This document shows positions 10,299 to 61,495 of a stretch of DNA of 64,000 bases, piece after piece. Position numbers and translations under genes: made by a program. The stretch spans positions 124,001-188,000 of the forward strand of contig JACRMR010000003.1 in the NCBI GenBank assembly GCA_016214895.1, written 5' to 3'. The notes under the pieces were generated by a model. It ran no database searches. It was not told where the DNA came from and worked only from the letters and a program-made list of their open reading frames with translations. Positions within the stretch are counted from its first letter, which is position 1. Every line of letters starts with the position of its first letter. Source of the DNA: a candidate division KSB1 bacterium. Its GTDB lineage: Bacteria; Electryoneota; RPQS01.

Positions 10299-10312
10299 TG
10301 CCGCCCGCCCGT

Positions 10313-10690
10313 CCGGCATCGGAGCGTTGGTTCTCCCCCCACATCCTGTGGGGGGCCGGGGGGGTGCGCGTCTTCGCGCATCGGGAACTCTCGTCCGGAA
10401 TCGGAGCGTCGGCACTCCCCCCACATCCTGTGGGGGGCCGGGGGGGTGCGCGTCTTCGCGCATCTTTTGCTCGCCGAACACGGATTTCTTCCCTGCCGGA
10501 ATGATTCGCGGCGGCACTCGTCTCCAAGTGCCCCGCTCTTCCGCCGAGCGCGGATTCCTTCCTCGATCAGCTCGCCGAGCACGGATTCCCTTCCCTGCTG
10601 GAATCTCGCTCAACCAATCTTCCGCCTCGGGTCCTTCCCCAGTTTCTGGGGAAGTTAGATGGGGTCGGATCTCCTCCCGGCGCACCCCAC
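10313..10690 (+). repeat. Intergenic hairpin cluster: two H12 units, degenerate H1, one H4, one H10
   Basis: Two 82-bp H12 units start at 10313 and 10395. They are followed by partly decayed H1 hairpins (CCGAGCACGGATTCC near 10570, with unpaired arms), an H4 copy (GCACTCGTCTCCAAGTGC near 10516) and an H10 hairpin (CCTTCCCCAGTTTCTGGGG then AAGTTAGATGGGGTC near 10632-10668). Frames point rightward. The gap between the genes ending at 10298 and starting at 10815 contains no gene. Confidence 0.85.
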
Positions 10691-36736: not shown

Positions 36737-36744
36737 TATTTATC

Positions 36745-37250
36745 TTGGCGGCGCTTGTCTCCAAGTGCCCTCTCGGGTGAGAGTTCTCCTCTTGGCGGCA
36801 CTTGTCTCCAAGTGCCCCATCGGGCGAGAGTTCTCTTCTTGGCGGCACTTGTCTCCAAGTGCCCCATCGGGCGAGAGTTCTCTTCTTGGCGGCACTTGTC
36901 TCCAAGTGCCCCATCGGGCGAGAGTTCTCCTCTTGGCGGCACTTGTCTTCAAGTGCCCCATCGGGCGAGAGTTCTCTTCTTGGCGGCACTTGTCTTCAAG
37001 TGCCCCATCGGGCGGGAGTTCGTGGCTTGGCGGCACTTGTCTCCAAGTGCCCCATCGGGCGAGAGTTCTCCTCTTGGCGGCACTTGTCTCCAAGTGCCCC
37101 ATCGGCCGAGAGTTCTCCTCTTGGCGGCACTTGTCTCCAAGTGCCCCATCGGGCGAGAGTTCTCTTCTTGGCGGCACTTGTCTTCAAGTGCCCCATCGGG
37201 AGAGAGTTCTCTTCTTGGCGGCACTTGTCTCCAAGTGCCCCATCGGGAGA
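36745..37250 (+). repeat. Tandem array of 11 H4 repeats, exact 47-bp period
   Basis: Copies start at 36745, 36792, 36839, 36886, 36933, 36980, 37027, 37074, 37121, 37168 and 37215, every one 47 bp after the last. Each has TTGGCGGCACTTGTCTCC then AAGTGCCCCATCGGGCGAG and AGTTCTC. The stem is GCACTTG / CAAGTGC with loop TCTC or TCTT. The first copy has GCGCTTG. There are no unique spacers. Confidence 0.95.
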
Positions 37251-37262
37251 AACAAACAGCAA

Positions 37263-37766
37263 TCACGGCATCAACGGCGGCAACTTCTCTTTGGCAACCG
37301 TAACGAGTCCCGGCTGATTCAACAGGTAATCCCGCGCACTTGACCAAGGGTAGGCCTCAGCGGTTTCCGCGAAAACTTTCTTGACCGGGTTGTGGTGCAT
37401 GTAGTTCAACTTCAAGTGCATCGCATCCGGTCCGGGGATGTAGTTGTCATCGAATCTCCTCCGCCAGAGATCACGCTCAGGATACTCGGCTGGTCGAAAC
37501 GGAAACGAGGTCTTGCGCTTGAATCGACGCATGAATTCTGAGACAATCGCCCCATCGACTTCTTGCAACATGAGTGCGTGCAGATGATCCGGCATCAGCA
37601 CATAACCAAGGCATATCACTCCCGTGTCCCTGCGATGCTGTTCAAATATCTCGAGCATTTCCGTGCAAATGGACGGAACCACGAACCACTGCCCCCGAAC
37701 GCTCGTAACCGTCGTGACGAAATGCACACTTCCCGCAAACGCTAACCGCTTGTGCCTACGAAGCAT
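37263..37766 (-). CDS. REP-associated tyrosine transposase (RAYT, Y1/IS200-like HUH nuclease)
   Basis: 167 residues, typical for the family. The HUH motif is His61-Leu-His63 in VLMPDHLHALM; the candidate nucleophile is Tyr122 in KLNYMHHNPVKKVF, followed by the family hallmark YPWSSARDYL. The N-terminus (HFVTTVTSVRGQWF) and RFKRKTSFPF also fit. Enzymes of this group cut and rejoin single-stranded DNA at hairpin (REP) sequences through a 5'-phosphotyrosine link. The stop codon is 13 bp from the left array and the start is 16 bp from a partial repeat on the right, so the gene and repeats form one unit. Only a weak GGAA precedes the start. All catalytic residues are present, so activity is plausible. 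Confidence 0.9.
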   Translation of the reverse strand: MLRRHKRLAFAGSVHFVTTVTSVRGQWFVVPSICTEMLEIFEQHRRDTGVICLGYVLMPDHLHALMLQEVDGAIVSEFMRRFKRKTSFPFRPAEYPERDLWRRRFDDNYIPGPDAMHLKLNYMHHNPVKKVFAETAEAYPWSSARDYLLNQPGLVTVAKEKLPPLMP

Positions 37767-37781
37767 GTTTCACATCATTCC

Positions 37782-38165
37782 TTGGCGGCACAGAAGTCTT
37801 TGGCGGCACTTGTCTTCAAGTGCCCCATCGGACGATTCCTCTTGGCGGCACTTGTCTCCAAGTGCCCCTTCGGCCGAGAGTTCGTGGCTTGGCGGCACTT
37901 GTCTTCAAGTGCCCCTTCGGCCGAGAGTTCTCCTCTTGGCGGCACTTGTCTTCAAGTGCCCCATCGGGCGAGAGTTCTCCTCTTGGCGGCACTTGTCTCC
38001 AAGTGCCCCTTCGGCCGAGAGTTCTTGGCTCGGCGGCACTTGTCTTCAAGTGCCCCATCGGACGATTCCTCTTGGCGGCACTTGTCTTCAAGTGCCCCAT
38101 CGGGCGAGAGTTCTCTTCTTGGCGGCACTTGTCTTCAAGTGCCCCATCGGAAAAAACTCTTGGCG
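37782..38165 (+). repeat. Tandem array of 8 H4 repeats plus partial copies
   Basis: Full copies start at 37800, 37842, 37889, 37936, 37983, 38030, 38072 and 38119. Spacing is 47 bp except twice 42 bp, where the linker reads CGGACGATTCCTC instead of CGGGCGAGAGTTCTCC. Truncated copies lie at 37782 (TTGGCGGCACAGAAGTC) and at 38159. Same orientation as the left array. Confidence 0.95.
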
Positions 38166-38196
38166 TAGTCCAAACGTGTTCGGTCCGGCACCCTGT

Positions 38197-38232
38197 CTCC
38201 CGAAGGGGCACTTGAAGACAAGTGCCGCCAAG
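38197..38232 (-). repeat. Single inverted H4 copy
   Basis: Reads CCCGAAGGGGCACTTGAAGA then CAAGTGCCGCCAAGG, the reverse complement of the array unit. It is the first element in the window with the leftward polarity that all elements beyond 41.4 kb share. Confidence 0.9.
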
Positions 38233-38360: not shown

Positions 38361-38840
38361 ATGTCCACTTCCCTTCTCCCCATCCTTCACCCGACCGCCT
38401 CTCGCCTTCACCACCAAACCGGCCCCAAGTCCGTAGCAGGCAAGCAGCGGTCCCGCTTGAACGCCGTCAAGCACAGCCTCTCCGCCACCGACGAGGTATT
38501 CCTGAACGGCCTCAAGCCATCTGAGCGGACCGCCTTTTCCCAAATCCGTCGCGGCCTGTGCAAATTCTACGAGCCGGAGACTGCCTACGAACGCTTGATT
38601 GTGGACCGCATGGCTGTGCATCACCTCCGCATGCTCCGCCTCTACAAACTCGAGTCCGACTCCTTCGAGATTCTTCCTCTGCACAAAGGCCCCGATCAAT
38701 CCATTCTCCCTCACCTCGACCGCCTCTCCCGTTACGATGTCCGCATCGAACGGCAGCTTCGTATCCTCCACAACCGCCTGCTTTCGCTCTACAATCAACG
38801 CCTCTCCAACACGCTTAAGTCCTTTCCCACCCGCGAGTAA
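38361..38840 (+). CDS. Uncharacterised protein with N-terminal GPKS-x2-GK-x2-SRLNAVKHSLSA motif
   Basis: 159 residues. The basic N-terminal stretch TGPKSVAGKQRSRLNAVKHS (20 residues) resembles an N-terminal motif that I recall from a widespread family of uncharacterised, mostly helical proteins in environmental bacteria. The rest is helical and charged (ETAYERLIVDRMAVHHLRML, then RYDVRIERQLRILHNRLLSL). Nucleic-acid binding is an inference from the basic N-terminus. The gene has its own good promoter 42 bp upstream and lies between H4 repeats on both sides. It may be a passenger of the neighbouring RAYT/repeat unit. No Shine-Dalgarno is visible (a C-run precedes the ATG). Confidence 0.65.
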   Translation: MSTSLLPILHPTASRLHHQTGPKSVAGKQRSRLNAVKHSLSATDEVFLNGLKPSERTAFSQIRRGLCKFYEPETAYERLIVDRMAVHHLRMLRLYKLESDSFEILPLHKGPDQSILPHLDRLSRYDVRIERQLRILHNRLLSLYNQRLSNTLKSFPTRE

Positions 38841-38884: not shown

Positions 38885-38966
38885 TTGGCGGCACTTGTCT
38901 CCAAGTGCCCCCTCGGGCGAGAGTCCGTGGCTTGGCGGCACTTGTCTCCAAGTGCCCCTTCAGCCT
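38885..38966 (+). repeat. Two more H4 repeats, 47 bp apart
   Basis: Copies at 38885 and 38932 (TTGGCGGCACTTGTCTCC), rightward orientation, the second ending two bases before the stop codon of the leftward gene. They are the last rightward elements in the window. Confidence 0.92.
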
Positions 38967-41489: not shown

Positions 41490-41832
41490 CGCTCGGCGAA
41501 GAAAGAGTGGGGCACGTCAAGTCTCAAGAGACGTGCCGCCGCAGGGAGTGCCGACGCTCCGATTCCGGCCGGGCGGGGACGCCCGGCTCGGCGGCGATTC
41601 TGCGGGGACGGCTGGCTCGGCGAAGAAAGAGCGGGGCACGTCAAGTCTCAAGAGACGTGCCGCCGCAGGGAGTGCCGACGCTCCGATTCCGGCCGGGCGA
41701 GGACGCCCGGCTCGGCGGGGGACGGCTGGCTCGGCGAAGAAAGAGCGGGGCACGTCAAGTCTCAAGAGACGTGCCGCCGCAGGGAGTGCCGACTCTCCGA
41801 TTCCGGCCGGGCGGGGACGCCCGGCTCGGCGG
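41490..41832 (-). repeat. Three tandem composite repeats (H5 plus H9-like), leftward orientation
   Basis: The GGGGCACGTCAAGTC motif starts at 41509, 41633 and 41747. Each unit holds H5 inverted (GCACGTC ... GACGTGC with loop AAGTCTCAAGA), a linker CGCCGCAGGGAGTGCCGAC and an H9 variant with arms GCCGGGCG / CGCCCGGC framed by CCGATTCC and CTCGGCG. These are the first leftward clusters after the polarity change. No gene in 41407-41836. Confidence 0.9.
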
Positions 41833-48757: not shown

Positions 48758-49085
48758 CCCCCCCTAATCCCCCCGTGAACGGAGGGGGATCCGATTTCCG
48801 ATTCCGAGCGGGGCACGTGCAGACTCAAGACACGTGCCGCCGCGAAGAAGGGCGGACTCTCCGATTCCGGCCGCGCGAGGACGCACGGCTCGGCGGGGAA
48901 GAGCGGGGCACGTCAAGTCTCAAGAGACGTGCCGCCGCGAAGTAGGGCGGACTCTCCGATTCCGGCCGCGCGAGGACGCACGGCTCGGGGGGGGGAAGAG
49001 CGGGGCACGTCAAGTCTCAAGAGACGTGCCGCCGCGACGAAGGGCAGACTCTCCGATTCCGGCCGCGCGGGGACGCACGGCTCGG
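48758..49085 (-). repeat. Intergenic cluster: H17 and three H5-H9 composites, leftward
   Basis: H17 at 48760-48792 (CCCCCCGTGAACGGAGGGGG); then three tandem composites of H5 (GCACGTC ... GACGTGC, first copy GCACGTGCAGACTCAAGACA) and H9 inverted, framed by CCGATTCC and GCTCGGCG, near 48806-48897, 48900-48990 and 48999-49085. The linkers differ slightly (GAAGAAGGGCGG, GAAGTAGGGCGG, GACGAAGGGCAG). No gene is present here. Confidence 0.9.
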
Positions 49086-49861: not shown

Positions 49862-49891
49862 AGGGGCACATGAAGACAAGTGCCGCCCAAT
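49862..49891 (-). repeat. Single H4-like hairpin with one stem mismatch
   Basis: GGGGCACATGAAGACAAGTG then CCGCC: arms GCACATG and CAAGTGC pair at six of seven positions, as if an H3 arm met an H4 arm. Leftward orientation. Confidence 0.75.
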
Positions 49892-51839: not shown

Positions 51840-52082
51840 ATGCGAGGGGGGGAGTGCTGACGCTCCGATTCCGGCCGCGCGGGGACGCACGGCTCGGCGG
51901 GGGGAGAGCGGGGCACGTCAAGTCTCAAGAGACGTGCCGCCGCAGGGAAGATTCCGGGCATGTGAAGACACATGCCGCGGCGGTGGAGCTCGGCGGAGGG
52001 AAGAGCGGGGCACGTGGCTCGGCGGGGAAGAGGCGCGAAGACGCGCACCCCCCTTGATCCCCCCACAGGATGTGGGGGGAGG
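51840..52082 (-). repeat. Intergenic cluster: H9, H5, H3, H12, leftward
   Basis: H9 inverted near 51862-51898, H5 inverted near 51909-51942, H3 inverted near 51950-51982 (GCATGTGAAGACACATGC), decayed H5/H9 pieces, and H12 inverted at about 52028-52080. The final G-run plus the next bases, GGGGGGAGGT, also form the ribosome-binding site of bshA. Confidence 0.87.
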
Positions 52083-61284: not shown

Positions 61285-61495
61285 GCACCGACCCCATCTA
61301 ACTTCCCCAGAAGCTGGGGAAGGACCAGAGGCGGATTCCGGCGGGGTCTGGAGACCCCGCTCGGGGAAGGATGCAGATTCCGTCCGGGTGGCGGGAGCGT
61401 TTGACCCGGCTCGGTGGAAGAGCGGGGCACTTGGAGACAAGTGCCGCCGCGAGTGATTCCGGCAGGGAAGGAATCCCTGCTCGGCGATCAACTTC
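61285..61495 (-). repeat. Intergenic cluster: H10, H7-like, H13-like, H4, H1, leftward
   Basis: H10 inverted at 61288-61328; an H7-like hairpin GCGGGGTCTGGAGACCCCGC near 61343-61362; an H13-like pair (CCGGGTGGCGGGAGCGTTTG ... ACCCGG) near 61382-61412; H4 inverted near 61423-61452 (GGGGCACTTGGAGACAAGTG); H1 inverted at 61460-61485 (GCAGGGAAGGAATCCCTGC). 61500-61640 has no recognised element. No gene lies in this gap. Confidence 0.88.

Follow-up and report, generated by a model that had tools for sequence, protein, structure and literature searches.

The reading of REP hairpins by their RAYT transposases is known mainly for REPs with GTAG-type feet. Contacts with the GTAG foot in E. coli TnpA_REP are made by Q95, E100, H101 and R104 (PMC6006769), and class 3 TnpA_Y1 proteins have been described with a CnGA foot (Quentin 2018, PMC6006769). 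Co-evolution of RAYTs with their REPs is also already known (PMC8266576). REPs can occur in long arrays: P. fluorescens SBW25 carries tandem arrays of 12 REPs and evenly spaced arrays of a single type, and REPIN clusters adjoin all three of its RAYT genes (Bertels and Rainey 2011, PMC3116915). Furthermore, large REP clusters consist mostly of units reiterated in tandem together with flanking DNA (Di Nocera et al. 2013, PMC3733652).

The locus described here is a new branch of this known enzyme-repeat partnership, not a new kind of element. It lies within a window (the whole stretch of DNA analysed, 64,000 nt) that is part of contig C3 of a 3.21 Mb genome (26 contigs, 98% complete). The closest MAGs with a name bear the label KSB1 or Calditrichaeota, which agrees with the FCB-type host proposed in a first-pass annotation of the window. 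A literature search for REP or HUH studies of KSB1-type lineages gave no relevant paper among those covered.

The transposase encoded at the locus (Table 1) matches Pfam Y1_Tnp (3.2e-7) and passes the NCBIfam model REP_Tyr_transpos (NF047646; 88.9 bits, cut-off 80), whilst scoring far below the cut-off of the transpos_IS200 model (22.3 bits, cut-off 55). With a profile made from 24 homologues, E. coli TnpA_REP (4er8) was the top PDB match (5.5e-10), and Foldseek with the AlphaFold2 model of the protein (pLDDT 91.8) again ranked 4er8 first (1.7e-8), with the ISDra2 and IS608 transposases behind it. Given the NF047646 score and the best PDB match to 4er8 by both profile and fold, the protein is a RAYT (TnpA_REP), and its Y-x3-NP and DHLH motifs place it in class 2 of the TnpA_Y1 proteins rather than class 3. 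No extra domain is present. Among the 24 aligned homologues H61, H63, Y122 and P127 are invariant, and N126 is present in at least 90%. The first-pass annotation had recognised a Y1 transposase with His61, His63 and Tyr122 and taken it for a RAYT accompanied by its REPs; both statements hold on this evidence.

The gene is bracketed by two arrays of the same orientation. Tandem Repeats Finder (TRF) assigned the left array a period of 47, 10.7 copies and a score of 884, and the right array a period of 47 and 7.7 copies, lengths that rest on one assembly and are to that extent uncertain. Read unit by unit, the left array contains 10 intact copies and a degenerate last one at an exact 47-bp step. 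The unit on the transposase strand is 5'-CCGATGGGGCACTTG(G/A)AGACAAGTGCCGCC followed by the spacer AAGARGAGAACTCTCGC. All intact copies have the stem GGCACTTG/CAAGTGCC, and CCGA is present in 18/18 intact units of the two main arrays. Mean pairwise identity of the left-array units is 92%, with many pairs near 100%. Each unit is a single hairpin in direct orientation, not the inverted pair that forms the unit of a REPIN or BIME. The 11 copies at an exact 47-bp period, the 8 copies at 47 or 42 bp and the stem GCACTTG/CAAGTGC had all been read correctly at the outset; that inventory had missed the inverted copy at 38205 and the copies at 38911 and 38958. A coding origin of the repeat was ruled out, as the period of 47 is not divisible by 3 and the long ORFs that run through the array are artefacts of the reading frame.

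A gene for a 159-aa protein (38361-38840, +) with the N-terminal motif TGPKSVAGKQRSRLNAVKHSL lies between the REP blocks, and no significant Pfam or NCBIfam family was found for it. Homologues occur in 9 genomes of the family, mostly in 1-2 copies. It was considered as another gene of the same system bracketed by REPs and was not counted as such, since its homologues elsewhere lack consistent flanking hairpins.

Table 1. The RAYT gene, its hairpin arrays and related repeats (positions in the window).
Feature	Position	Strand	Evidence or remark
Left array, downstream of RAYT: 11 direct 47-bp units	36743..37247	-	TRF, unit list, identity
RAYT / TnpA_REP, 167 aa	37263..37766	-	HUH (H61, H63), Y122, Y-x3-NP motif; Pfam, NCBIfam and PDB matches
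Remnant of a REP, truncated to its 3' half (GTGCCGCCAAGG), close upstream of RAYT start	37780..37791	-	Sequence reading
Right array, upstream of RAYT: 8 direct copies, 47 or 42 bp steps	37800..38150	-	TRF, unit list
Lone inverted REP copy	38205..38229	+	Unit list, genome pattern search
Two further direct REP copies, at 38911 and 38958, 47-bp step	38887..38958	-	Beyond 159-aa gene
Dispersed imperfect intergenic copy GGGGCACATGAAGACAAGTGCCGCC	49863..49887	+	Pattern search
Dispersed intergenic copy of window REP class, beside GCAGGGA-class copy	61424..61448	+	Pattern search
Hairpin stems by RAYT: C3 (window) GGCACTTG; C12 GGCAGGTG; C7 GCAGGGA; C8 GGCATGTC			

The first-pass annotation had made its reading depend on copies of the unit elsewhere in the genome, and these are plentiful. 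The 20-bp hairpin GGCACTTGTCTYCAAGTGCC has 63 exact occurrences genome-wide (3.2 Mb) and its reversed control none, so its recurrence is not due to chance. The REP core is common to distant sites with unrelated flanks, and REP dispersal has thus taken place in many contexts. The window hairpin also forms arrays of 6-7 copies remote from any RAYT (C2:165095-165390 and C20:346430-346620), and inverted mixed hairpin pairs occur elsewhere in the genome (e.g., C12:142113-142566). The hairpin class of the C7 gene has 62 copies genome-wide when up to 3 mismatches are allowed.

Other repeats were observed alongside these. At L071 and L072 (G000 C20 and C12), GGCACTTG hairpins alternate with oppositely oriented GGCACATG hairpins at periods of 173 and 136 bp; these composite repeats are a BIME-like form of the window REP class. 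A further hairpin class, GGGGCACGTC...GACGTGCCGCC, forms tandem arrays in the window at 41509-41778, 48810-49033 and 51910-51941 (periods 114 and 97 bp); it has many copies genome-wide but lacks a RAYT of its own here, and the hairpin it comes closest to is that of the C8 RAYT. An 83-bp unit with a CCCCCCACA..TGTGGGGGG hairpin is repeated in arrays at 437-774 and 10310-10464 and constitutes another repeat family. The heptamer AAACTTG is present in about 61 copies at L070:4455-4884 (G000 C20), and short heptamer repeats were seen at several further loci of this genome and related ones.

A search for other RAYT genes, which had been proposed together with the search for the unit, found three more. 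The genome therefore holds four Y1 genes, each flanked by a different hairpin, and the other three are 49-51% identical to the window RAYT, with no near-identical copies. These genes belong to a lineage of about 28 (about 45-57% identity) that is found in 10/13 genomes from the same family and order and no further: its weakest member reaches 174 bits, and the Y1 genes that come next in the phylum reach at most 113 bits. A 4-mer scan requiring perfect stems of at least 7 bp found such a stem within 150 bp of 23/28 lineage genes (control positions, mean 7) and missed 5/28 genes with long loops or bulges; most of these remaining genes have bulged or long-loop hairpins when read by eye (examples are L080, L087, L095, L097 and L099). 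One hairpin class per RAYT is the rule followed by about 28 relatives in one order. The hairpins of most relatives are inverted across the two sides of the gene, whereas those of the window locus are direct. Three more distant Y1 genes (L112, L113 and L114) were found in the same family of genomes, and the hairpins of L113 and L114 adjoin CTAG; the family thus contains RAYT lineages that differ in their feet.

Within the lineage, the stem follows the RAYT protein tree, across genera, rather than the host genome. The 24 aligned RAYTs have 14 stem classes, and placing these classes, which were set by hand, on the protein tree, several forks of which are weak, required 14 changes for the 24 RAYTs, against a mean of 18.9 and a minimum of 16 in shuffles (0/500 as low). 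The host genome label on the same tree required 18 changes, and 415/500 shuffles were as low, which is the behaviour of a random label. The nearest homologue of the window RAYT (L080, 57% identity) also has the nearest hairpin (GGCACGTG vs GGCACTTG).

The foot of these hairpins is distinctive. CCGA or CCGC adjoins the stem at 19/28 RAYTs (controls, mean 1.4 and maximum 5) and GTAG at 1/28; the GT[AG]G foot of a canonical REP is thus not the foot used here, and canonical GTAG REPs were searched for and not found. In 24/39 copies outside the window, CCGA lies no more than 2 nt from the stem, where 0.02 per copy would be expected, and the copies that have no CCGA so close belong mainly to the C2 and C20 arrays. 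When the single strand was folded, CCGA remained unpaired at the base of a stem that has one bulged G (energy z = -5.2). A free foot and one bulged G recur in the folds of the C3, C8 and C12 classes, and the foot is partly paired in that of the C7 class. In the alignment to 4er8, the GTAG-contacting residues Q95, E100, H101 and R104 correspond to R/x, D107, V/N108 and P111, and the contact residues are replaced in this lineage. As far as the literature search reached, no class 2 protein whose hairpin has a CCGA foot has apparently been described.

The arrangement of the arrays points to how they arose. The spacer GAACTCTCG...CCGA is found at the window locus only, save one match with 3 mismatches, and other arrays have spacers of their own (units of 45 bp at C2:165095 and of 42-43 bp at C20:346430 and C17:167168). 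As the REP core is common to many sites and the spacer is particular to each array, REPs were dispersed first and then duplicated locally with neighbouring DNA, and each array has a local origin. The recent growth suggested at the outset is supported in this local sense, the spacer being essentially unique to the locus. Some variants of the unit (AAGCCACG(A/G)ACTC, for example) are found on either side of the gene as well as at 38958, and this suggests that blocks have exchanged units.

Taken together, the locus is probably a REPtron of a distinct RAYT lineage, formed by dispersal of CCGA hairpins in trans followed by local tandem duplication. The transposase would bind its cognate REP hairpin in single-stranded form, with the foot 5'-CCGA, which may guide cutting, and, like E. 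coli TnpA_REP, would use Tyr122 and the HUH pair to cut and rejoin DNA at the hairpin. Single REPs would thereby be dispersed round the genome in trans, a step that we infer from homology and from the copies with unrelated flanks. A REP landing beside the gene would then be duplicated head to tail with 17 bp of neighbouring DNA, most likely through unequal recombination or hairpin-promoted replication slippage, and the array would keep growing while units were exchanged between the two sides of the gene.

Alternatively, the RAYT itself could build the arrays by cutting and rejoining neighbouring REPs in single-stranded DNA (e.g., on the lagging strand), so that units are duplicated in place and arrays mark its activity in cis. 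Tandem arrays do lie within 300 bp of 9/28 RAYTs, against a mean of 0.5 and a maximum of 3 for control positions at the same loci, an excess that is overstated because the controls include coding DNA rather than being restricted to intergenic DNA; arrays near RAYTs also involve different hairpin sequences in different genera. However, the same hairpin forms the C2 and C20 arrays remote from any RAYT, and slippage or recombination works without a transposase, so this explanation is unlikely. A broader version, whereby the lineage switched its foot from GTAG to CCGA and, besides dispersing hairpins in trans, amplifies them mainly in cis, cutting and rejoining repeatedly so that head-to-tail arrays build up round its own gene, is slightly less likely still. 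Two further explanations leave the REPtron aside. The repeats could be non-mobile terminators, mRNA-stabilising sites or gyrase-binding sites beside which the transposase lies by coincidence, and the hairpins are indeed intergenic, with the left array immediately before the start of a PTR2 transporter gene (36736, -). Such a coincidence is very improbable, given that each of four RAYTs is flanked by its own hairpin, that the stem tracks the RAYT tree across genera, that the CCGA/CCGC foot recurs at most RAYTs of the lineage, and that the genomes G001, G004 and G006, which are without the lineage, gave 0 matches to the hairpin superfamily pattern; as read, the hairpins are also followed by no T runs. 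An ordinary IS200-like insertion sequence, with gene and flanking hairpins moving as one unit, is just as improbable. The HUH/Y1 fold would suit this, as would the single inverted hairpin on each side of most relatives, which resembles subterminal IS ends. However, identity among the four genes is only about one half, their hairpins differ from gene to gene, the IS200 model stays below its cut-off where REP_Tyr_transpos passes, and the tyrosine motif is Y-x3-NP, not Y-x3-Q. The IS200/IS605 assignment was rejected on the absence of near-identical whole-unit copies and the IS200 score.

Reading the locus as a REPtron bears on what is new about it. The initial view that long tandem arrays beside the gene represent a different amplification mode falls, because tandem, evenly spaced REP arrays and RAYT-adjacent REPIN clusters have been published for Pseudomonas (PMC3116915), and tandem reiteration with flanking DNA is on record for large REP clusters (PMC3733652). 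The first-pass annotation had overlooked the unusual features, namely the CCGA foot and the presence of four RAYTs with a different hairpin at each. What is new is a RAYT lineage in an FCB-type order, with a CCGA/CCGC foot and frequent tandem arrays at the RAYT gene (9/28), and there remain the direct-orientation arrays on both sides of the window gene. The many natural enzyme-hairpin pairs, with a changed foot and changed contact residues, offer a ready set in which to test how a domesticated transposase co-evolves with the DNA it targets. With arrays recurring at the RAYT gene, a role of RAYTs in tandem growth becomes testable, which has been a question since the first descriptions of REP arrays.

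Compared with the GTAG-type REPtrons of E. coli and Pseudomonas, the locus has the same HUH core, Y-x3-NP motif and single chain of about 165 aa, hairpins flanking the gene on either side, dispersed intergenic hairpins, one class per RAYT and (in the window class) a bulged stem. It differs in its CCGA/CCGC foot in place of GT[AG]G and, judging by the alignment to 4er8, in the replaced contact residues. Within the scheme of Quentin 2018, the nearest group is class 2, subclass 2.2, by the DHLH and YxHxNP motifs. The class 3 TnpA_Y1 proteins (Quentin 2018, PMC6006769) are alike in their CnGA tetranucleotide foot, many copies per genome and REPtron-like layout, but have a Y....Q-type motif and NHVH where Y-x3-NP and DHLH are found here. 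TIRtrons and their TIRYTs (Di Nocera 2013, PMC3733652; mostly subclass 2.1) likewise comprise a Y1 transposase between inverted repeats that are sometimes self-complementary, with several per genome and a repeat for each, but most TIRYTs possess an HTH domain at the C terminus together with a GGGGWSAS motif, in contrast to the single domain and CCGA-foot hairpin of the present locus. The arrays of SBW25 share the even spacing, up to 12 units, the clusters beside RAYT genes and the flanking DNA within units. The RAYT clusters of SBW25 are, however, REPINs, that is, inverted pairs, whereas the window gene is accompanied by single hairpins in one orientation on both sides, 19 copies plus 3.
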